Below, piece after piece: positions 195 through 25,594 of a stretch of DNA of 61,499 nt (positions are counted from its first letter, which is position 1; every line of letters begins with the position of its first letter). Position numbers and translations under genes: made by a program. Under the pieces are notes generated by a model. The model worked only from the letters and a program-made list of their open reading frames with translations, made no database searches and was not told the DNA's origin. The stretch covers positions 1 to 61,499 of IMG/VR virus record IMGVR_UViG_3300031215_000016; one strand, 5' to 3'. The stretch is from a virus.

Positions 195-1226
195 CTATTC
201 AAGTTTTATTTTTTTTCTCTCTTTTATAGGTACGTAAAAATCGGGCTTGTGTTCGGACACCCTGGGTTTCCAATAATCCATCACGGGCTTGTTTCTTAAT
301 TTTCTATTACTAATTTTAGTAAACTTTTGATTAAACCTAAGCCATCCATGCAAGTTCATTACGTTAACGTCCCAATCTTTATTTCTTCTACCCGAAATTT
401 TAGAATAATCTAACCCCATGTCAGCGGCCTTGTGCTTAAATTTTTTTCTGTAGTGGTGGTAGTTCCTGTTGAATGGTCTATAATTGGCGCCATCGTCAAT
501 GTGGGTCTCTCCAAACCTACTGCCCATAGTCCATGTAGAGGAGTCTATGCTAAACATTGGCCTGTTCATCAATTCGTTATATACTGTGTAGCCGAAGCCA
601 TGAAGTCTAGTATTAAACGACCTGGATATTTGGGCTATTTTGGGGTATGACTTATTCATGTTAATGCCAGACGCAATACCTACGTAGTCGTGTAGGTTGC
701 AGTACTCTTTTAGTCTTTTAAAGGCCATAACATCTTCCTTCTCATTGGGGTGTACAACGTAAACAATTTGCATGTATTTTTCTAAAGGCTTAAAATACCT
801 TTCATTCCATTCGTCTACGGCTTCTCTACCAACTATTCTGTCTAAGTCCATGTTAGCCGCACAATATATGTTGTGGCAGTTGTCGTAAAGAAATTGAATG
901 TACTCCTCAATGTACGGCTCCCAAAACTTAGGGTCTGTTGATTTGCTCCTGTCTATATTAGCGAGCAATGAGAAGGCCCCTGAGTCAGTCATAAAAACGC
1001 CCTTAGATTCTACTATTTCGGGTAACATTTCTTTTTCTGCCCAATCTAAGGACTTCCTAATATATTCGTAGGACATCAAGTAACTTAGAGCTCCTACATA
1101 TCTGACTTGTTTATATCTGTTTCTATTATTGATTGTGTAAAATAGAACCGATTTATTTTTGTCAAATTCGTTTATACAATCAAACTCTTTTCGTTGAGAT
1201 ATTTTAGAAGCCCTAAATTCACTCAT
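195..1226 (-). CDS. dpdA: DpdA-like DNA guanine transglycosylase (7-deazaguanine insertion)
   Basis: Predicted to exchange guanine bases in phage DNA for a 7-deazaguanine base, which protects the DNA from restriction. The 343-residue sequence has hallmarks of the tRNA-guanine transglycosylase superfamily: MTDSGAFSLL with Asp81 (TGT TDSGGFQ motif), a GIASGINM segment, LHGFGYT, and SIDSSTW with Asp228 as the candidate nucleophile. It lacks the C-terminal zinc site usual in tRNA enzymes, as DpdA proteins do. Its ATG overlaps the stop of the upstream oxygenase gene (ATGA, 1223-1226), so the two are probably translationally coupled. queC and a QueF-like gene precede them, which supports a DNA-modification role over a tRNA role. 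I cannot assign the DpdA subfamily from sequence alone. Confidence 0.85.
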   Translation of the reverse strand: MSEFRASKISQRKEFDCINEFDKNKSVLFYTINNRNRYKQVRYVGALSYLMSYEYIRKSLDWAEKEMLPEIVESKGVFMTDSGAFSLLANIDRSKSTDPKFWEPYIEEYIQFLYDNCHNIYCAANMDLDRIVGREAVDEWNERYFKPLEKYMQIVYVVHPNEKEDVMAFKRLKEYCNLHDYVGIASGINMNKSYPKIAQISRSFNTRLHGFGYTVYNELMNRPMFSIDSSTWTMGSRFGETHIDDGANYRPFNRNYHHYRKKFKHKAADMGLDYSKISGRRNKDWDVNVMNLHGWLRFNQKFTKISNRKLRNKPVMDYWKPRVSEHKPDFYVPIKERKKIKLE

Positions 1227-1927
1227 ATTCTAAACAGAACTGTGTCTCCTTCTTCAATAGAGAATTGAGCAACAAGGCTTGCTCTTGCTTCTGTATAACT
1301 ATGACCTTCTTTGTTCTCAAAAGGTGAAATGTCATGCTTTAGTGCGGAGTTGAAAATGATAGCTTCTCCTGCTTCAAGACGGACGGTTTTTGTTTCCGTT
1401 GTGCCCAAGTGTTTTTGGATGTTCAAATAGAAGGTCACTCCGCCAAAAACATTGCAAACTAACGTGAATAGCTTGGGGGTTTCTAGGTTGTCTACTACCT
1501 CTGATTTGTCGTATATGGCCAAATCTCTATGAGCACCACCCTTTTCTATGTGGTTTTTTAGAAAGTGAAAAACGGGGTAGTTTATGTAGTAAAAGTTTTT
1601 CAATTTAGGGCTAGAACCGTTAGAGAAAACAGCAAAATTGGCGGCCATTGTATTGGCTACAAAACTTTCTAGTTTTTTAAATAAGTCCGCGACTAAGAAT
1701 TTTTTTAGGTAATCTATATGGTACGATTCAATACTGTAACCTAAATTCATCATACTGTCATAAAGGCTTATTCTGCCCCCAATGTTAAGCTGGGTTACTC
1801 CTTTATACTCGCTTTCAAAAGCTAGGCTCTCTTCTTCGTTTTCAAATTTTAAGATTTCTGATATGAGGGCTTGGTTTGTTTCCTTTTGGGACTTGCCCAT
1901 CAACAATTTGTGGGGTTTTGTTATCAT
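1223..1927 (-). CDS. 2-oxoglutarate/Fe(II)-dependent oxygenase-like protein in the deazaguanine cluster
   Basis: This 234-residue protein shows a double-stranded beta-helix oxygenase pattern: HRD (His133, Asp135) as the HxD iron ligands, a GGVTFYLN strand, a VRLEAGEAIIF strand, His198 in LKHDISPF as the distal iron ligand, and Arg215 in ARASLVAQF as the likely 2-oxoglutarate anchor. The order and spacing resemble prolyl-4-hydroxylase-type enzymes. It sits between the QueF-like gene (one base apart) and dpdA (4-base overlap). The position suggests that it oxidises the deazaguanine base or the modified DNA, but the substrate is inference. It could instead act on an unrelated protein or nucleotide. 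Confidence 0.65.
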   Translation of the reverse strand: MITKPHKLLMGKSQKETNQALISEILKFENEEESLAFESEYKGVTQLNIGGRISLYDSMMNLGYSIESYHIDYLKKFLVADLFKKLESFVANTMAANFAVFSNGSSPKLKNFYYINYPVFHFLKNHIEKGGAHRDLAIYDKSEVVDNLETPKLFTLVCNVFGGVTFYLNIQKHLGTTETKTVRLEAGEAIIFNSALKHDISPFENKEGHSYTEARASLVAQFSIEEGDTVLFRI

Positions 1928-1928
1928 G

Positions 1929-2489
1929 TTAGTTTACTACTTTGTGGGTTATTCTGCTTTTAACCGGAGCAGATTCAAGGTGAACGTATATGGCGTTCGT
2001 CTTGAATATAACACAAAAAAAGTATTTTAAAAAATCTGCAAAGTCCTCATGTAGAATAGAAATAAATCTAAATTGGTCTAAGGCGGTTAACAGTTGACCG
2101 AACTCTATCATGATTTCGCAATGGTTTATGTGCACAGTGAGTTTGCAGTTATCATTGAACCCCGTTACAGGACAAACATTAAACAAGTCCTCAATAGTGA
2201 TTATGTATTTAGACTTAGGGAATTCTGTTTTCAGTTTCTCCTCAACAAAAACATCGCTTAGGCCCGTAATAAGTTTAGTTCTCTCTACTAGGTGTAAGAG
2301 AAGTTCTTGTTTATTGTCAAAAATGTTGCCTGTATCAGTACAGCAAGCTAGTTTAGCGTCTAAGTAAGCCTCACAATAGCTTTCAATTTTTGAATTGTCT
2401 TTTATACGCTCGAAAGCCTTTTTGTCTGAGTTTGCAAGACGGGCAATTACCACATCCTTTCCCAAAATCGTTTCTTTTGTCTGAACCAT
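1929..2489 (-). CDS. QueF-like tunnel-fold enzyme lacking the NADPH motif
   Basis: The C-terminal half matches the QueF (7-cyano-7-deazaguanine reductase) core. CPVTGFND carries the catalytic Cys106 and Asp113 seven residues later, Glu129 sits in a pocket strand, and His147-Glu148 match the FHE motif. The QueF signature E-S-K-S-x-K that binds NADPH is replaced by EFGQLL, so ordinary nitrile reduction is doubtful. QueF paralogues proposed as carboxy-deazaguanine decarboxylases (DpdL) are one alternative, recalled from literature. The chosen ATG makes the gene overlap queC by 107 bases. No ATG, GTG or TTG occurs in frame shortly after the queC stop, so either the overlap is real or a rare start codon is used. 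Confidence 0.65.
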   Translation of the reverse strand: MVQTKETILGKDVVIARLANSDKKAFERIKDNSKIESYCEAYLDAKLACCTDTGNIFDNKQELLLHLVERTKLITGLSDVFVEEKLKTEFPKSKYIITIEDLFNVCPVTGFNDNCKLTVHINHCEIMIEFGQLLTALDQFRFISILHEDFADFLKYFFCVIFKTNAIYVHLESAPVKSRITHKVVN

Positions 2490-3051
2490 AGTAGCAAGTT
2501 ACTGTATCATTTATTATAACATCTAAGCAACCTAAATCGTCAGCCAACTTGAAAGTCTCAGCCTTATTTAAGTGCATTAACGGGGTGTGTATTTTTATTG
2601 CTTCTTCGCTACCTAAATTTGTCGTTTTCTCTAGCGAATTTATGAACTCTTCTCGGCAATCAGGGTAACCTGAGTAGTCTGTTTGGCAGACCCCAGTAAC
2701 TATGTGTTCGGCCCCTATTTTTTGGGCTAAACTGTGGGCTACGGTTAAAAATAGTTGGTTTCTGTTAGGGACAAAAGAGGAAGGAAGTCCTTTTTTATTT
2801 GTTTTATTGACATCGCCACTATGAACTAGTGCGCTGTTGGTTAGGTTTTTTACGAAACCTAATTCTACACCATGGAGTGGTATAGATAGTCTTTTAATTA
2901 TTTTTATGGCAGCAGAAACCTCATGTATGTGGTTTTGTCCATAATCGAAAGTGATAGCTTCTACTTCCTTAAAATTAGAAATTGCCCAGAAAAGGCATGT
3001 TGTGGAGTCTTGTCCACCGCTAAAAACTACTACTGCTTTTTGGTCAATCAT
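2383..3051 (-). CDS. queC: QueC, 7-cyano-7-deazaguanine (preQ0) synthase
   Basis: Converts 7-carboxy-7-deazaguanine to preQ0 with ATP and ammonia. The 222-residue protein has the N-terminal PP-loop SGGQDS (11-16), the TGVCQTDYSGYPDCR substrate segment (120-133), and the zinc-binding cysteines Cys186, Cys200, Cys203 and Cys206 (CGNCPSCKLR). All hallmark residues are intact and the length is normal for the family. It opens the modification cluster, followed by the QueF-like gene, the oxygenase and dpdA. folE, the first pathway enzyme, is encoded far away at 24941-25594. queD and queE are not in the window. A terminator-like hairpin separates it from the gene upstream. Confidence 0.95.
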   Translation of the reverse strand: MIDQKAVVVFSGGQDSTTCLFWAISNFKEVEAITFDYGQNHIHEVSAAIKIIKRLSIPLHGVELGFVKNLTNSALVHSGDVNKTNKKGLPSSFVPNRNQLFLTVAHSLAQKIGAEHIVTGVCQTDYSGYPDCREEFINSLEKTTNLGSEEAIKIHTPLMHLNKAETFKLADDLGCLDVIINDTVTCYYGSDKRNDFGKGCGNCPSCKLRQKGFRAYKRQFKN

Positions 3052-3297: not shown

Positions 3298-3582
3298 CTA
3301 AATTTTTGTCAACTCCAAAGAAAGTTGCATTCCTGTAAAATTTAATTCATCGTCAATGGTATTAAAGTTGGGAACGCATTTTATTTTTTTGCCTAAAGAC
3401 GATAGTGTTTGGTTAGCTATGATTACGGATTTTACCGCGTTATTTAGGGCTCCAGCACCAACGAAGTTTAGTATAATGTTTATCGGCTCCTTGGAGTTTC
3501 TATAAACTATGCAAATGCTTGCGGCCAACTTTTTAGGGTTGGTTTTTGAAGCAACGTTATAATCTTTTCTAATCCCTTCCAT
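3298..3582 (-). CDS. SpoVS-like (Alba superfamily) protein
   Basis: The 94 residues resemble the whole SpoVS domain: an N-terminal KTNPKKLAASI segment, then VGAGALNNAVKSVIIA matching the family's IGAGALNQAVKAVAIAR, a CVPNFNTI strand, and a final amphipathic strand. SpoVS belongs to the Alba fold, whose members bind nucleic acids. In sporulating bacteria it regulates sporulation. In a phage a DNA or RNA chaperone role is more likely, but that is inference. It overlaps the 3' end of the upstream nuclease-like gene by 14 bases. Confidence 0.7.
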   Translation of the reverse strand: MEGIRKDYNVASKTNPKKLAASICIVYRNSKEPINIILNFVGAGALNNAVKSVIIANQTLSSLGKKIKCVPNFNTIDDELNFTGMQLSLELTKI

Positions 3583-3985
3583 TTTCGTATTCGTTTAGTA
3601 TTGTTTCTAAATCTTCCGGGCTTATAACTAAAAGATACCCACGGCATCCCTTTTGTTTTATGGCTACCACGGGTGTCTTATTTTCTTTTTTTGCTAACTC
3701 TTTAGTTTTTTGGTATAAACCGTGAACTGAGAACTTATTTCTGAGTTTGGCTTCAATGAACAGTTTTTTGTGAAGGGTGTCAGCACTGGTTACTCCGCCA
3801 TTAGAACCACTAAGGGGTGTTCTCTTTGTGCCAAAATCGGCTGCTACGGTGCGTTCAAATGCTTTCCACGTACTTTTATGTGTTGTCTTTTTGGCGGGCT
3901 TAGGAGGGCTTAAAATAGCTTTTTTGGGTATTCTTTTAATCTTTGGTGGCTTGTTTTGTGTTACGGTTCTTTTAATCTTTGGCAT
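3569..3985 (-). CDS. PD-(D/E)XK nuclease, Holliday-junction-resolvase-like
   Basis: After a 38-residue Lys/Pro-rich tail, the protein shows an archaeal Hjc/VRR-like core: WKAFERTVAADF (Glu44), LSGSNGGVTSADT (Asp69), then LFIEAKLR with Glu78 and Lys80 as the catalytic ExK, followed by a PVVAIKQKG strand. The likely role is recombination-junction cleavage or DNA trimming. It is followed by the SpoVS-like gene (14-base overlap). A second protein of the same type is encoded at 9388-9729. The start is an MPKIK-type N-terminus shared by several genes here. Confidence 0.65.
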   Translation of the reverse strand: MPKIKRTVTQNKPPKIKRIPKKAILSPPKPAKKTTHKSTWKAFERTVAADFGTKRTPLSGSNGGVTSADTLHKKLFIEAKLRNKFSVHGLYQKTKELAKKENKTPVVAIKQKGCRGYLLVISPEDLETILNEYENGRD

Positions 3986-5539: not shown

Positions 5540-5833
5540 TTAATACCATGACGTCATTACCCTATCAAAGTTTTTATTATGGCTTGTAAGGGCTATACTA
5601 CAAGCTATTTTAATACCCTCGTCTAGTATGGTGAAGGCTCTGTAAGTACCAAAAGAACCTGAGTAGGTTGAGAACAATAATATGTTCCTGTTTTCTTCGC
5701 AAAAAGACTCTACTTCTTCTTTCTTGTCTTTGAAAAGAGAGGGGGAAAATTTAGACCTATGTATCAGTCCATACTTATCTACTGTGGCGGTTTTGTGCAT
5801 TTCTACTAAAACTTCCTCTATATACTTTTTCAT
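5540..5833 (-). CDS. Hypothetical protein (97 aa)
   Basis: A mixed alpha/beta protein with no recognised motif. It starts MKKYIEEVLVEMHKTA and has a beta-rich middle (NILLFSTYSGSFGTYRAFTIL). It starts two bases after the stop of the VWA-protein gene and is probably co-transcribed with the AAA+/VWA pair. About 60 bases separate it from the membrane-peptide gene downstream. Confidence 0.6.
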   Translation of the reverse strand: MKKYIEEVLVEMHKTATVDKYGLIHRSKFSPSLFKDKKEEVESFCEENRNILLFSTYSGSFGTYRAFTILDEGIKIACSIALTSHNKNFDRVMTSWY

Positions 5834-5835
5834 GG

Positions 5836-7662
5836 TTATGATATTAGTCTGTTCATTTTCTTTGCTACATACTTACCTAGCATGTTCGGCAATTCTTCTA
5901 AGTCGGTAAATTTTATATAGTTGCTAAACATCTTCTCAGAAGACACCGAATTGTCAATCGCTATTTGGATGATTTCTGTTCCACTATTTTCAATCTCCTT
6001 AACACATTTTCTAGTGTGCGCTACTGCTTCTTCGCCACTATATCCCGAAGATTGTGGGTCTCCATCTGATATTATTATGTATAGAAAGTTATCACCTATT
6101 TTTCTCTTAGCTATTTTGTGGACTTCTTTTATTGCATCGCCATCCCTGTTGTTATATTTGGCTCTAACGTTTCCAAGCGAGTAAGGGTTTTTTGTTTGAT
6201 TTCCTTCGCAATAAACACTTATATTAAGTGGGTACTTTGACGGTTCAGTAGGAGCTGTTAAATCCGATGTGTGCCCGTATATGTAATGGTCTATTGCAGG
6301 AATATCTTTAAATGCCTCGTTTAGTGCTATCGCGGCTGCTTTCGCATTTTTTATTCTACTTCCGTGCATAGAGCCACTCTCATCAATAAGCAGAACAACG
6401 CTTAGTTTCTTAGACTCCTGGTTGTGTCTTTTTTTGTACACATTGGGCGAGCCTGATATTACTTTTACTGGATTGCTTAAATCTAGCTTACCTGAGTTTT
6501 GAGAACTTAGGTCGTAAGCCCTGACTTTTCTGAATTTGTTGAATACGTATTTTAGTCTATTTACTACTGAAGATATAGAATTCCTGGTGTTATGATACTC
6601 TACGTAATTATCTTGTGGTTCGTTGTACAACAATTCGTAATCACCTTCACTGTTCTCTGAGTCATGCGGATGTTTTTTGTAGTCTTCACCCTTTTCGCTT
6701 TCTTCTTCTTTGTCGGGGTCTTCCCCACCACCACTGTCTGATGTTTCTGGGGCTTCTCCTTTAGGTGTGCCACCTATTTCTGGGTCTTCATCGTCCATTT
6801 CCATAGGTTGATATTTAGAAACCATCTCTTTCACACCTTCAACTAATCTAATAAGGTCTTCGGGGCTTAAATCCTCGGGGATGTGGTTTTCTAATTTTAG
6901 GAATATAGTCATAGCTAAATCCTGAGCATCTTTTACAGTGTCTATTGGGGAAGACATAGTGTCCTTTACAAACTCTAAAAAAGACATATTGTAAGCCATG
7001 TTAGCCAAATCTTGGTTTTTATGCGGCCTTAAAACATCGTAAAGAATAGTGATTAATTCATCTAGCTTGCTGTTATACTTGGGTGCGGATTCCCTGTCTA
7101 TATTTGCGTAGTAATGAGAGCAGAACATTAAGTGCCTAAAGTGTCTAGGTTTGTGCTCTTTTATTTTCTGCTCAATTCTAACGTCCTCAATTATATTTAA
7201 AACAGTTTTGTATATGCCTGTTTTGCTGTTACCAAATCTGTCAGCAACAGACTTTAGGTGTGGGCCTAAATTGTGCATTTCGCTGTAAAGTATGTGAGCA
7301 CTTTCGTGAACACCTAAACCAAGGACTGCGGAGTAAGAGTAGCCAAAGCCCGAAGTTTCTGACGACCTAAAAGGGGCTAAGGCTACTTGTACTTTCTCTC
7401 CATCTGTTAAGCTATCCCTGTCGTGGAAGACAAAGTATTTCTTCTTAACTTTTTTATCAATAAGTCCTGTGCACATTCTTATGCAGTCTCTTTTGGTTTT
7501 GCTAATGGCCAACCGAGTATTTAACTTTTCGCTTTTAAAGTAAGGTATCGGTACGTGACTAGGTAGGTCGTGTTCGGGGATTACCGAAAAATCTACTAAA
7601 CCAATATGCTCTTCGTAAAAGCTATCTATATCTGATTTTATATCCTCAAGTTCTGTTAACAT
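5836..7662 (-). CDS. CobT-like VWA protein with an N-terminal HExxH metallopeptidase-like domain
   Basis: The N-terminal half carries HESAH (119-123) followed by NIIEDVRIE (156-164), the arrangement of metallopeptidase-like domains found in some VWA proteins. A very acidic, low-complexity linker follows (about 287-345). The C-terminal VWA domain has a complete MIDAS motif, DESGS (Asp427), and later SDGDP. Such proteins pair with MoxR/CobS-type AAA+ ATPases to remodel or metallate partner proteins. The AAA+ partner is the gene immediately upstream (two bases apart). CobS/CobT homologues are known in phages, but their substrates are mostly unknown. A true cobalt chelatase role is unlikely without the large subunit. 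Confidence 0.8.
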   Translation of the reverse strand: MLTELEDIKSDIDSFYEEHIGLVDFSVIPEHDLPSHVPIPYFKSEKLNTRLAISKTKRDCIRMCTGLIDKKVKKKYFVFHDRDSLTDGEKVQVALAPFRSSETSGFGYSYSAVLGLGVHESAHILYSEMHNLGPHLKSVADRFGNSKTGIYKTVLNIIEDVRIEQKIKEHKPRHFRHLMFCSHYYANIDRESAPKYNSKLDELITILYDVLRPHKNQDLANMAYNMSFLEFVKDTMSSPIDTVKDAQDLAMTIFLKLENHIPEDLSPEDLIRLVEGVKEMVSKYQPMEMDDEDPEIGGTPKGEAPETSDSGGGEDPDKEEESEKGEDYKKHPHDSENSEGDYELLYNEPQDNYVEYHNTRNSISSVVNRLKYVFNKFRKVRAYDLSSQNSGKLDLSNPVKVISGSPNVYKKRHNQESKKLSVVLLIDESGSMHGSRIKNAKAAAIALNEAFKDIPAIDHYIYGHTSDLTAPTEPSKYPLNISVYCEGNQTKNPYSLGNVRAKYNNRDGDAIKEVHKIAKRKIGDNFLYIIISDGDPQSSGYSGEEAVAHTRKCVKEIENSGTEIIQIAIDNSVSSEKMFSNYIKFTDLEELPNMLGKYVAKKMNRLIS

Positions 7663-7664
7663 AA

Positions 7665-9110
7665 TTAAGATTTTTGAGATAGGGTTTCTATTTCGATTTC
7701 AAACTCCTCGGAAAGTTCTTTAGGAACTCTCGGCATTAGGTAAGACTTGCATGCCTTTTCTACACTAAAACCACCAACAACTCTAGTTGTTATAACCTTT
7801 GTGGCTCGTATTGATGGCACATAGTCGTACTCTTTTTCTAGGCAAAGGCTCCTTATTTCTTGGATTATGTTAACAATCGTGTTACATATAGGGTCTGACA
7901 GAGAACCCTTAGAAACATGCTTAACAATAGCCAACTCTACTTCCTTTTTGGGGTAATCAAACTCTATTATGTACATGCGTTCTCTAAGGGCCTCATCAAT
8001 ATTGCTAGTACCTGAGTACTTACCACCAATGTTAGCAGTACCAAAGAACACAGTGCCTTTACCAACTTTGAACTTTTTGTCGGTCGCTTTATAAGCAATA
8101 GGTATTGTTACAGTTCTCCTATCGTCAAGTATCGGGAATAATATGTTGCTTGCGTTCGGGTCAATCCTATTGATTTCGTCACAAAGAACTACTGTGTTTT
8201 CCTTTTTACAGAAAGATGCGAACGGGGCCAAAGAAAAATTAGATGCTCCGTCAAGAAGGGTTAGTTGGCCAAGCAAACCTGATACGGGGTCTGTCATGGT
8301 GCTCATATCTACGTATTCGTAGTTCATGCCTATCTTTCTAGCTAGGTGCTCAATAACTGTTGTTTTTCCAACACCGGAAGGGCCAGTAATTAATGTGGGT
8401 ATATTTTGAAGAGCATTGAAAACTAAGTCGCTCCAAATATCCTTCTCTACAAGGATGTTGTCGTCCTCAAGATTTGGTGTGCTTAGCTTTTTGTCGGTCT
8501 CTATGCGGTGCAGAACTGAACCTGGGGGGGAAGAAGAAGCGATTGTATTTATGACATCCTTAAACACGTAAGTTTCGGGCATATCATCCATTGATGTTTT
8601 TCCCTGAGTTTGCAAATCTAATTCGATTGCTTGGTTCCAAATAACCATATTCTTAAATATGGGAAGATACCTAGAGGACATCTCGTCAATTTTGGGTGTG
8701 TCAAGAAGGGGAGTAAAATTGTTATCCTCTGTAACTAAGTAAGAATGGTCACTGTCTATTCTAATACTACCCTTAGATATGTTTTCCTCTAAATCCTTTC
8801 TATCTATTAAGGTTAGAATTGTTTTTGGCCCGTCTATACACTTAGGCTTTATAATTTCTGTAAGAGATATATCGCAATTTGTGGGGTAGCTATTAACCTG
8901 AGCCACAATGGGGTATTCAAAAATATAATCTACTTTATCACCTATTTTTTTGATACTAACGTTTGCATATTGAAAGGGGCGAACTTCCCACTTTGGTAGC
9001 CAACGGGCATCTTGCCTATCTTGAAGAACAACCAATATAGGTGTTTTATTTAAGAGTATTTTTTTGGCCCTCTTTGCAGCCACGGGTACTACCTTATTTA
9101 TTGTCGGCAT
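7665..9110 (-). CDS. MoxR/CobS-like AAA+ ATPase
   Basis: An unrecognised N-terminal region of about 220 residues precedes the AAA+ core, which has Walker A GPSGVGKT (243-250), Walker B VVLCDEINRID (Asp311-Glu312), a sensor-1 FFGTANIGG segment, and the arginine-finger region EALRERMYIIEF. It is the MoxR partner of the VWA protein encoded directly downstream. The gene follows a 77-base gap that contains the ATATTAGTA promoter-like element, so it probably begins a transcript. Confidence 0.85.
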   Translation of the reverse strand: MPTINKVVPVAAKRAKKILLNKTPILVVLQDRQDARWLPKWEVRPFQYANVSIKKIGDKVDYIFEYPIVAQVNSYPTNCDISLTEIIKPKCIDGPKTILTLIDRKDLEENISKGSIRIDSDHSYLVTEDNNFTPLLDTPKIDEMSSRYLPIFKNMVIWNQAIELDLQTQGKTSMDDMPETYVFKDVINTIASSSPPGSVLHRIETDKKLSTPNLEDDNILVEKDIWSDLVFNALQNIPTLITGPSGVGKTTVIEHLARKIGMNYEYVDMSTMTDPVSGLLGQLTLLDGASNFSLAPFASFCKKENTVVLCDEINRIDPNASNILFPILDDRRTVTIPIAYKATDKKFKVGKGTVFFGTANIGGKYSGTSNIDEALRERMYIIEFDYPKKEVELAIVKHVSKGSLSDPICNTIVNIIQEIRSLCLEKEYDYVPSIRATKVITTRVVGGFSVEKACKSYLMPRVPKELSEEFEIEIETLSQKS

Positions 9111-9187: not shown

Positions 9188-9391
9188 TTAAAACCTTAAT
9201 TCTAGCGGAACTCTGTTGTTCATTTTGTGACAAAGAGTTTCTATCCTGTCTTTGCTGCGGCACTTGCTTCTTGTTTTTTTATGCAGTCTACTACTGTTAT
9301 TAGGCATAAACACCTCAACAAGTTTGTATTCTTTTTCTGTCGGCTTTACAATGTACTTTACTTTTAAAATGCCTTTGGTTGGTACTCTCAT
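9188..9391 (-). CDS. Hypothetical basic protein (67 aa)
   Basis: A short Lys/Arg-rich protein beginning MRVPTKGILKVKY, with no recognised family. It overlaps the end of the upstream nuclease-like gene by 4 bases (ATGA type), so it is likely expressed from the same transcript. The charge suggests nucleic-acid contact, but nothing more can be said. Confidence 0.55.
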   Translation of the reverse strand: MRVPTKGILKVKYIVKPTEKEYKLVEVFMPNNSSRLHKKTRSKCRSKDRIETLCHKMNNRVPLELRF

Positions 9392-9729
9392 TTCTCTGTT
9401 TTGAATTTATTGACGATAGCTTCTAGGTCACTTAGTTTTATTACCGCTAATTCTAAATCGTCATTTTCAAACTCTATAACGAAAGACGGCATTTGAGTTA
9501 CCTTTGTTCTTGATTCTAGTTTTCTCCACTCTTCTACGGTTAGTCTGTAACCCTTTCCATAGGTTATTTTAGCTTCTATACTTACATCAGCACTAACGAC
9601 ATCGTTTTCTCCGAACGTGGCGCCAGAGTTAATCGTCTTGTTTGCTTTGAACTTGTTAGCTAAAGAAGTTTCTTGCTTGTCAGACCTCTCTCTAGTTGTC
9701 TTTTCTTTGAACCATTTTGGCTTGCTCAT
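9388..9729 (-). CDS. Small PD-(D/E)XK nuclease, Hjc-like
   Basis: In 113 residues it shows RSDKQETSLANKF (Glu20), NSGATFGENDVV (Asp43), SIEAKITYGKGYRLT with Glu52 and Lys54 as the ExK pair, and an MPSFVIEF strand. That is the compact core of Holliday-junction-resolvase-like nucleases. It lies directly downstream of the RecA-like gene (7-base gap), consistent with a role in recombination. It resembles the product of 3569-3985 in fold but not closely in sequence. Confidence 0.65.
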   Translation of the reverse strand: MSKPKWFKEKTTRERSDKQETSLANKFKANKTINSGATFGENDVVSADVSIEAKITYGKGYRLTVEEWRKLESRTKVTQMPSFVIEFENDDLELAVIKLSDLEAIVNKFKTEK

Positions 9730-9736
9730 ACCACTA

Positions 9737-10879
9737 TTATAAGGAATGTATTTTAGGAATTTCTGCGTAAATTTCGTCCTCTAATATTTCGTAGTACTCG
9801 CTGCTAAGTATTTTGTCAACGAAAGCATCAAACCCTTGTATCTTTAGGTCTTGGTATGAAAACCAACCACCAGCTCTTTTTATAAAACCTAAAGTAGAAG
9901 CAACTTCAATCATCTGTGAAGGTATATCAATAGTGTTAGCTTTTTGAGTTCCTGTGGGTTGTAGGTTATAAAAATATGAAGACTTTAGACCTCTCACACC
10001 AAGTTTATTTTTTAAGCATGTAAGACTTACAGAATAACCTGAGTAGTTAAGAGGGGTTTCTTTGTTTTCGGCAGACTCAAATTTGAGGGCGTTAAACCTA
10101 ATTGATATGGTTTTGGCGAGCTTTAATTGATTTCCATTTTTTATTTGCTCAGGGTTGCCCATAGAAAATCCAACCTTTTCATAAGCACTGTTTATCATCA
10201 TAAGTGTGCCGCACTTTTCTGGGTTTTTATTTATGGCGTTTTGAAGCTTTCTAACGGATTTGTTCCAAAACCTAGCAGTAGAACTCATTTGGTCTTTTTC
10301 CATGCTGTTCTCTACCTCTGTCTTGTCTCCTATAGCGCTCATAGAGTCAAAAACGACTAAGGAGTTGCTAGGGTCTCCTAAAAGTAGCTCAGTAATGTCT
10401 ACCGCTTGCTCTAAGCTTTGCGGCATTATGTGGATTAAATTGTCATTGTCTATTCCGTGTTTTTCCCCCCAACTTTTCGTGTAAGTTCCCTCAACATCAA
10501 CTAAAGCACAGGTTTTTGTGTTTTTTGGATTTTCCTGCAATGACCACCTTCCTGGCAACCAATCTATTTTTTGAAACTGAGATATTGCCTTATATGCCGA
10601 TAAAGACTTGGTTGATGAAAAAGCACCGAAATGCTCAATTATCCTTCCTACCGGTATAAAATTAGTTATGTAGTCTAGTGCCGGTAATCCGTAAGGAACC
10701 TTAAAAACGTTAGCTGTCTCCGAAGCTATACTCACTACATCTGCACCGCAATGCTTGTTTATATCCGTAATGAGTTTCTTTAGGTCATTTTTTTTCTTAG
10801 TTTTACTAGGGCTGTCTGAAGAAATTGCAACTGATTTTTTAGAGGTTGATTTTTTGTCGGAAGTCTTTTTTGTTGGCAT
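9737..10879 (-). CDS. RecA-like recombinase
   Basis: The 380 residues align with the RecA core: VPYGLPALDYITN, VGRIIEHFGAFSSTKS (degenerate Walker A at 85-92, where the usual Gly before Lys is Thr), the NSLVVFDSMSAI Walker B strand, and later KNKLGVRG. A basic, disordered N-terminal tail of about 35 residues contains SSDSP (20-24). The gene starts inside the 3' end of the polymerase gene (41-base overlap). It probably catalyses strand exchange in replication and repair. The Walker A change could lower ATPase activity. Confidence 0.85.
   Translation of the reverse strand: MPTKKTSDKKSTSKKSVAISSDSPSKTKKKNDLKKLITDINKHCGADVVSIASETANVFKVPYGLPALDYITNFIPVGRIIEHFGAFSSTKSLSAYKAISQFQKIDWLPGRWSLQENPKNTKTCALVDVEGTYTKSWGEKHGIDNDNLIHIMPQSLEQAVDITELLLGDPSNSLVVFDSMSAIGDKTEVENSMEKDQMSSTARFWNKSVRKLQNAINKNPEKCGTLMMINSAYEKVGFSMGNPEQIKNGNQLKLAKTISIRFNALKFESAENKETPLNYSGYSVSLTCLKNKLGVRGLKSSYFYNLQPTGTQKANTIDIPSQMIEVASTLGFIKRAGGWFSYQDLKIQGFDAFVDKILSSEYYEILEDEIYAEIPKIHSL
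10809..10823 (-). repeat. 15-base dispersed repeat, copy 1 (encodes SSDSP in RecA)
   Basis: On the minus strand TTCTTCAGACAGCCC, identical to copies at 13476-13490 and 20378-20392. All three are read in the same frame and encode SSDSP in a disordered segment. A 12-base version (TTCTTCAGACAG) abuts the ATG at 50858, and a 10-base version lies at 42111-42120. Confidence 0.7.
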
Positions 10880-23383: not shown

Positions 23384-24948
23384 TTCCCTGGGCAATAAAA
23401 AAATCTTTAATGGCAGTACCAAAAGGTTCTGTTGATGTTAAAACCCTAGAGAAAGACTTGTCTGTAAAAGAGTTAGGGTTCACTAATAAAGGAAGAAAAA
23501 GCTTAGGCATTAAGCCTTTATGGAGAGAAGATAGTGAAAGATTTTATTTGCCCAGAAACTATCTAAGGAATAAGGGGATAAAAATAAAGGAGTTTAGAGA
23601 CTTGACAAAAGAAGGGACAGAGTGCCCAAAAATGGTTTTTAAAGCCAAACTAAGGGATTACCAAGAAGAGTTCTTTAGGCAGCACGATAGGCTCTTTACG
23701 GACACCGATGTAGTAATAGAAGCTGGTTGCGGTTCGGGTAAAACTGTTATGAGCATCTACATGGTTTGTAAAAGGGCAGTAAAAACTATTGTTTTGGTTC
23801 CGACTAATTTTTTGGCCGACCAATATTACGACCGGTGTGTAGAGTTTGTTGATGGAGCCAAAGTGTCTAGGGCAACAACAAAGAAAATTGATTGGGAAGA
23901 CGCTGACATACTGATACTATCCTACGAGCTTTTCAAAGTAAGGAAGTTTACAAAAGAGTTTTTTGAAGAGTTTGGCCATTTTGTTATTGATGAAGGTCAT
24001 AGAGTAGGCGCGGACGGGCATGAAAAAATAACAGCGATGATGCCTGCAAAATATAGGACAATGCTTACTGCTACATTTCGTAGAGAAGACGGTACTATGG
24101 AAATTATTGAGCACCATTTTTCTTTTCGCGCCAAAATGAAAAAAGTAAATCCAGACGTGTTGGTGTTCCCTTTAAACATAGGAAAGAAATACGGAACTAT
24201 TGTAAGTTTTAAAAAGAATTTTGAGAAAGAAAAAAGCAAATCAGAGTTACTGGAAGCTTTAAAAGTTATGGAAGACGTTGGTGTATCAATGTTAAGAAAA
24301 GGACACAACGTAGAGTTCCTAGAACCTATGGAAGTACAGAAATGCTTTTTTAAAATAAACCACAACGTATTAAGCAAAAAAACCTCAAACATAATTGACA
24401 GCATCATATACAAAGTAGGGTTAGCAACCAAAAATCCCCAATATGCCGCAGTAGATAGTTATGTATCCATGGACAAAGTAAGAAATGTTAAGCTTGCTAA
24501 ATTTTGCAGAGATTTAGTTGTAAGGGATGGGAGAAGAGTTTTAATATTGGGCAAAAGATTAGACCAATTAAATTATTTTGATAGCTATTTAAAAAATTGT
24601 GGCATAGTTTCGCAAGTATTAAATAGGGAAACAAACGCGGCTTTGAGGAAAGCGAAAAAACTAGAAAAAACCATCGGGGAAGCCCAAGTAATAGTGGGCA
24701 TAGATAAGTTAGCAAAAGAGGGGATGGACGTAGATAAATTAGACACCCTAGTGCTGCTAACTCCCATAGGTGACACGGAGCAAGCTTTTGGTAGGGTGAG
24801 CAGAATACTTAAAGGAAAAAAGAAACCATACGCATTTTACCCATACGACCAGTGCACACCTTACCAACAAATATTCAAAAAATCACAAAAATTTATACCA
24901 ATTAACGGGAGAATCCAAAAAGAAATATATTTAGACGATTATGTATAG
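23380..24948 (+). CDS. SF2 DEAD/DEAH-type helicase (XPB/RapA-like)
   Basis: The 522-residue superfamily 2 helicase has KLRDYQEEFF (Q-like motif), EAGCGSGKT (motif I), LVPTNFLADQ (Ia), FVIDEGHR (II, DEGH), MLTATFRREDG (III), and in the C-terminal domain RVLILGKRLDQ (IV), VIVGIDKLAKEGMDVDKLDTLVLL (V) and QAFGRVSRI (VI). All motifs are intact. It probably unwinds branched DNA in replication or recombination. It overlaps both neighbours by 4-8 bases. Confidence 0.9.
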   Translation: MIPWAIKKSLMAVPKGSVDVKTLEKDLSVKELGFTNKGRKSLGIKPLWREDSERFYLPRNYLRNKGIKIKEFRDLTKEGTECPKMVFKAKLRDYQEEFFRQHDRLFTDTDVVIEAGCGSGKTVMSIYMVCKRAVKTIVLVPTNFLADQYYDRCVEFVDGAKVSRATTKKIDWEDADILILSYELFKVRKFTKEFFEEFGHFVIDEGHRVGADGHEKITAMMPAKYRTMLTATFRREDGTMEIIEHHFSFRAKMKKVNPDVLVFPLNIGKKYGTIVSFKKNFEKEKSKSELLEALKVMEDVGVSMLRKGHNVEFLEPMEVQKCFFKINHNVLSKKTSNIIDSIIYKVGLATKNPQYAAVDSYVSMDKVRNVKLAKFCRDLVVRDGRRVLILGKRLDQLNYFDSYLKNCGIVSQVLNRETNAALRKAKKLEKTIGEAQVIVGIDKLAKEGMDVDKLDTLVLLTPIGDTEQAFGRVSRILKGKKKPYAFYPYDQCTPYQQIFKKSQKFIPINGRIQKEIYLDDYV

Positions 24949-25594
24949 GAAAGACAAAGAGTTAGGTTTAGAAGTAAAGAACCACTTAATTGAGGAAGGG
25001 ATAGAAAACCCTACAATAGAAGTTTTGGGCGACCAAAAAAAAGAGGTAGAAAAGTTTGCTGCAAAAATGTTAGAGTCCATAGGGATAGACCTAAGTAACT
25101 CTTCGACTAAAGGCACTCCAAGGAGATTAGCTAAGATGTTTGTAGATGAACTTTTCTGGGGACTTAATTACGATAATTTTCCTGCCCTTCAAGTAACTGA
25201 GGACGAATATGGAGTCTATGATTCAATGATAATCGAGAAAGCCATACCAGTAAAAAGCATGTGTGAACACCACTTAATGCCAATAAAGGGTATTTGCTCT
25301 ATAGCCTACATCCCAAACAAAAAGATATTGGGGTTATCGAAATTGAACAGAGTGGTTAGGTTCTTTAGTAGGCGGCCACAAATACAGGAGAGGTTAACAG
25401 AGCAAATACATGCGGCAATGGCTTGGGTACTAGAAACAGACGATGTGGCTGTTCACATGAGCGCTGAGCACTTCTGTGTGTCTCATAGAGGGGTAGAAGA
25501 CCATGGAACAGTTACGGAGACCATGAGACTGTCGGGGGCATTCAAAGAAGACCCTGCGGCTCGTTCAGAGTTTACCCAAACGGTGAACAAATGA
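24941..25594 (+). CDS. folE: GTP cyclohydrolase I (FolE)
   Basis: It makes dihydroneopterin triphosphate from GTP, the first step toward 7-deazaguanine bases (and folate). The 217 residues show GTPRRLAKMF, SMCEHHLMPIKG with the zinc ligands Cys108 and His111 and neighbouring His110, LGLSKLNRVVRFFSRRPQ, and AEHFCVSHRGV with Cys179. All catalytic motifs are present. Given queC and dpdA elsewhere in the genome, its likely job is to supply the DNA-modification pathway. Confidence 0.95.
   Translation: MYRKDKELGLEVKNHLIEEGIENPTIEVLGDQKKEVEKFAAKMLESIGIDLSNSSTKGTPRRLAKMFVDELFWGLNYDNFPALQVTEDEYGVYDSMIIEKAIPVKSMCEHHLMPIKGICSIAYIPNKKILGLSKLNRVVRFFSRRPQIQERLTEQIHAAMAWVLETDDVAVHMSAEHFCVSHRGVEDHGTVTETMRLSGAFKEDPAARSEFTQTVNK

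Follow-up and report, generated by a model that had tools for sequence, protein, structure and literature searches.

We identify, at the left end of an IMG/VR virus record, a minus-strand run of four genes in which queC and dpdA bracket two unusual members: a gene for a QueF-family protein that has lost the NADPH motif and a gene for a 2OG-Fe(II) oxygenase-like protein. With about evenly balanced confidence, we read this run as an operon for 7-deazaguanine modification of phage DNA that includes a tailoring branch, in which a QueF-L-like conversion would be followed by oxidation. The record (IMGVR_UViG_3300031215_000016; linear, no terminal repeat) was analyzed over its full 61,499 nt, hereafter the window. 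It belongs to a tailed phage, as it also encodes a DNA polymerase, a DnaB-like helicase, and portal, terminase, and baseplate proteins.

A deazaguanine gene cluster and its nearest relative

The cluster runs from queC (2383–3051, minus strand; 222 aa) through the QueF-like gene (1929–2489, minus; 186 aa) and the oxygenase-like gene (1223–1927, minus; 234 aa) to dpdA (195–1226, minus; 343 aa), with junctions of 1–4 bases apart from an overlap between queC and the QueF-like gene. All four lie where the original prediction had placed them, and its assignment of the cluster to 7-deazaguanine DNA modification is supported by profile matches that identify queC and dpdA unambiguously. The preQ0 synthase QueC is canonical, with an SGGQDS loop and a four-Cys zinc motif, and matches PF06508 (E 7.7e-77) and TIGR00364 (254 bits, cut-off 150). 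The DNA-guanine transglycosylase DpdA matches PHROG 887 (queuine/DNA-guanine transglycosylase, E 1.5e-27). Its residues Asp81 (MTDSGAFS) and Asp228 (FSxDSSxW) are invariant in A1 and A7 and form the probable catalytic pair; TGT-like, with these two Asp residues and deazaguanine genes alongside, the protein has the features of its family. The predicted folE (24941–25594, plus strand) is likewise a clear GTP cyclohydrolase I (PF01227, E 3e-58), which would perform the first step of the preQ0 pathway and may serve folate too.

Several features of the dpdA neighborhood were noted in passing. SpoVS-like, Holliday-junction-resolvase-like, and cobaltochelatase-like ATPase/VWA genes adjoin the cluster (3298–3985 and 5836–9110) and recur near dpdA in relatives. 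In the human-gut phage MT835482 (L003, 8965–11163), the dpdA frame is split at the catalytic DSS/TTW site by an insert of ~400 residues that is intein-like in appearance, with HN at its end. Downstream of dpdA in several relatives lies a four-Cys-motif protein (L006, 9515–10336) whose match to PHROG 887 falls in the C-terminal part of that family. DpdA of another relative (L012, 7932–9467) has a similar domain fused to it, which suggests that the four-Cys-motif protein may be a DpdA partner.

The nearest relative of the cluster is an IMG/VR contig, L006, with the order queC, QueF-like, oxygenase, dpdA, and then queD and queE. Its DpdA is 65% identical to that of the window, and its record carries a folE 54% identical to ours. 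Since both odd genes recur in this independent contig (~35% identity) with their order kept, their grouping goes beyond chance. In alignment-based searches L006 was the only IMG/VR contig matched by either odd protein, and it carries both; single-protein scans of IMG/VR gave no relatives, and neither protein had a relative in 50,697 phage records. Bacterial and archaeal genomes yielded no match to DpdA or the oxygenase. L006 also holds two extra genes (5658–6524 and 7174–8001) that are interleaved among the QueF-like, oxygenase, and dpdA genes and flank the oxygenase. The product of the former has weak class I methyltransferase matches (PF10017, E 0.003; NF041820, E 1.4e-4), while that of the latter matched no family and is methyltransferase-like by eye only. 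The two proteins showed no mutual relation by phmmer and no match among the phage records, and both are absent from the window.

The original prediction had also reported queD and queE as missing. The 61,499-nt window has no homologue of either QueD or QueE of L006, so the observation itself stands. As a trait of the pathway it does not, and we rejected a biological absence in favor of a truncated contig. The sequence ends 194 bases beyond dpdA, within another small gene (1–145, minus) of which only the first 48 codons remain and whose direct reading is unlike QueD. In L006, queD follows dpdA by 55 bases and queE by 1.9 kb. Truncation of the contig is therefore the most likely reason for the absence of both genes. 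Records of most other relatives with similar dpdA neighborhoods span 65–96 kb, the 37.7-kb L006 record and one 5-kb match being fragments.

The QueF-like and oxygenase-like proteins

The QueF-like gene starts within queC, with an overlap of 107 bases (2383–2489); the corresponding overlap in L006 is 131 bases, in the same relative frame. We considered whether this frame could be a mere shadow of queC and rejected the idea, as most of it lies outside queC and the likeness across the overlap is greater than that given by synonymous recoding of queC (1 of 500 recodings, made without codon bias). Both odd proteins resemble their own families weakly, with scores that fall short of the curated cut-offs. 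The QueF-like protein matches the NCBIfam model QueF-II (TIGR03139) with E 0.013 and 15.3 bits, under the 86.9-bit cut-off; its L006 homologue is 36% identical, and the C-terminal part of that homologue alone matches the same model weakly (E 0.1). Profile comparison strengthens the assignment: hhalign of the two homologues against an alignment of four QueF proteins, among them those of halovirus HCTV-5 and Cellulophaga phi38:2, gave E 2.8e-5, against 0.24 and 0.57 for mismatched control pairs.

Both homologues keep the Cys and Asp of the QueF motif CPxTGxxD (Cys106 and Asp113), and the window protein keeps Glu148. In QueF, the corresponding residues are, in turn, the Cys that forms the thioimide, the Asp that acts as acid, and the Glu that binds the base. 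The His beside the base-binding Glu is not conserved in L006. The NADPH motif ExKxLKxYL is replaced by EFGQLLTAL in the window and by ELGQLGLSL in L006, and an RGG loop was found in neither protein, whereas both elements are invariant columns in all four QueF references. The predicted loss of the NADPH motif from a QueF relative is thus borne out. With Cys, Asp, and Glu kept and the NADPH motif and RGG loop lost, the protein resembles archaeal QueF-L (archaeosine synthase) more closely than it does the reductase, as judged from its motifs. An AlphaFold model was poor (mean pLDDT 43), yet shows the beta2-alpha2-beta2 order. With this low-confidence model, the best ten PDB matches in Foldseek were all archaeal QueF-L (5k0p/5jyx; E 0.01–0.04, none below 0.001), with QueF and FolE ranking after them. 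Sequence searches of the PDB were uninformative, save for one weak QueF match.

The oxygenase-like protein carries the expected iron triad, His133-x-Asp135...His198, and a 2OG-binding Arg215. All four residues are among nine invariant columns in an alignment with three 2OG oxygenases that are annotated or Pfam-matched, one of them from an unannotated record and one from contig L007 (PF13640 match). Together with an hhalign E value of 2.2e-5 against 2OG oxygenases, this supports the original call of a 2OG/Fe(II) oxygenase-like gene at a sub-cut-off Pfam score. PF13759 is the best Pfam match of both homologues, with E 0.025 and 15.4 bits in the window and E 0.01 and 16.7 bits in L006 (cut-off 27 bits). 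By tblastn, the L006 protein matched phage 2OG oxygenases with E 0.007–0.04. The structural model (mean pLDDT 37) gave no useful fold match and no pattern like that of the QueF-like model. In L007, a different 2OG-Fe(II) oxygenase (9237–9830; PF13640, E 1.9e-8; PHROG 61) is encoded directly after dpdA of another deazaguanine cluster and is a second case of oxygenase–dpdA association.

A proposed tailoring pathway and its rivals

Synthesis of preQ0 and its insertion by DpdA would follow from established pathways. Starting from GTP, FolE and QueC would make preQ0 together with QueD and QueE, whose genes probably lie just beyond the contig end; DpdA would then put preQ0 in place of guanine in phage DNA. 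From motifs and gene order, we infer two further steps. The QueF-like protein would attack the nitrile via a thioimide; addition of ammonia would yield an archaeosine-like formamidine and addition of water an amide, in either case instead of preQ1. The 2OG-Fe(II) oxygenase would then hydroxylate or otherwise oxidize the modified base. Such a base could protect the phage DNA from restriction. QueF and QueF-L share a common Cys/Asp thioimide route that splits at hydride versus ammonia, and QueF-L uses ammonia, with preQ0 in tRNA as its substrate (PMC5485725). If the proposed steps hold, the product may be a DNA base beyond the known 7-deazaguanines, archaeosine-type or related and oxidized by a dedicated oxygenase; in L006 it might also be methylated by an interleaved methyltransferase-like protein. 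This outcome is plausible from the gene content, and we put it forward tentatively, as somewhat short of an even chance.

The QueF-like protein could instead be a reductase with an altered cofactor site that still makes preQ1, the oxygenase then oxidizing the preQ1 aminomethyl arm. Phage QueF relatives tested to date gave dPreQ1 (PMC6884629), and the top NCBIfam match is QueF-II preQ1 synthase; that match, however, stays below the cut-off (15 versus 87 bits), and ExKxLKxYL and RGG, present in four of four QueF references, HCTV-5 and phi38:2 included, are absent. We regard this reading as distinctly unlikely. The function of phage QueF-family proteins is evidently hard to predict, and earlier predictions proved wrong, since Dp-1 and HVTV-1 proteins called QueF-L by HHpred yielded dPreQ1 (PMC6884629). 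The NADPH motif is intact in the aligned phage QueF sequences, among them that of the HVTV-1-related halovirus HCTV-5, but not in the window protein.

It is also conceivable, if rather unlikely, that the final base is already known (dG+, amido-, or preQ0) and that the oxygenase has a different target, such as a protein or some other base. Phages often carry 2OG oxygenases as accessory genes (PHROG 61 and 81), and the sole tie of this one to the base is gene order in two contigs. Against this, the oxygenase lies between the QueF-like gene and dpdA in both contigs, with two more genes around it in L006, and an oxygenase adjoins dpdA in L007 too. DpdL, a predicted phage enzyme of the deazaguanine pathway that was reportedly described together with DpdM and DpdN in a 2023 paper, offers another possible identity for the QueF-like protein, that of a carboxy-deazaguanine decarboxylase leaving 7-deazaguanine in DNA. 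This we consider highly improbable, because the canonical queC directly upstream would drive the pathway beyond CDG to preQ0 and the Cys and Asp of nitrile chemistry are kept. The annotation of Acinetobacter phage SH-Ab 15497, considered as a source of DpdL, contains no deazaguanine genes.

Significance and relation to known systems

Base modifications are a main anti-restriction defense of phages, and new nucleic-acid chemistry has its source in them. If a deazaguanine pathway includes an oxygenase, the range of known replacements for guanine in DNA would grow. With a phage QueF relative that has lost the NADPH motif, one could ask whether QueF-L amidine chemistry works on DNA, a question that phage proteins predicted to be QueF-L did not answer, as they gave dPreQ1 (PMC6884629). 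The original prediction could name no matching pathway; the combination indeed occurs in none of the phage records searched, but archaeal QueF-L is a named precedent for a QueF relative that lacks the NADPH motif.

Compared with archaeal QueF-L (5jyx, 5k0p; PMC5485725), the window protein shares the tunneling-fold topology, as seen in its low-confidence model, as well as the Cys and Asp and the lack of an NADPH site. It differs in a longer N-terminal part, in ~18% identity in the fold alignment, and in its setting, a phage with DpdA in place of arcTGT. Phage dG+/dPreQ1 clusters (9g, Dp-1, nt-1, HVTV-1; PMC6884629) resemble ours in combining the FolE-QueD-QueE-QueC preQ0 pathway with DpdA and a nitrile-converting enzyme. 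No oxygenase is mentioned for them in that paper, whereas the window has one, and the window QueF-like protein is far more divergent and without the NADPH motif. The marine Bacteroidota phage Cellulophaga phi38:2 (KC821629) carries folE, QueF, dpdA, queC, queD, and queE, but the NADPH motif of its QueF is intact, and its cluster has a cysteine-rich protein where the window has the oxygenase. Bacteroides phage BS162P1 (OP172706) shares the neighborhood, with a SpoVS-like gene, a QueC-like PP-loop gene, dpdA (38.5% identical), and QueE; unlike the window, it has no QueF-like gene and no oxygenase among the genes adjoining dpdA.
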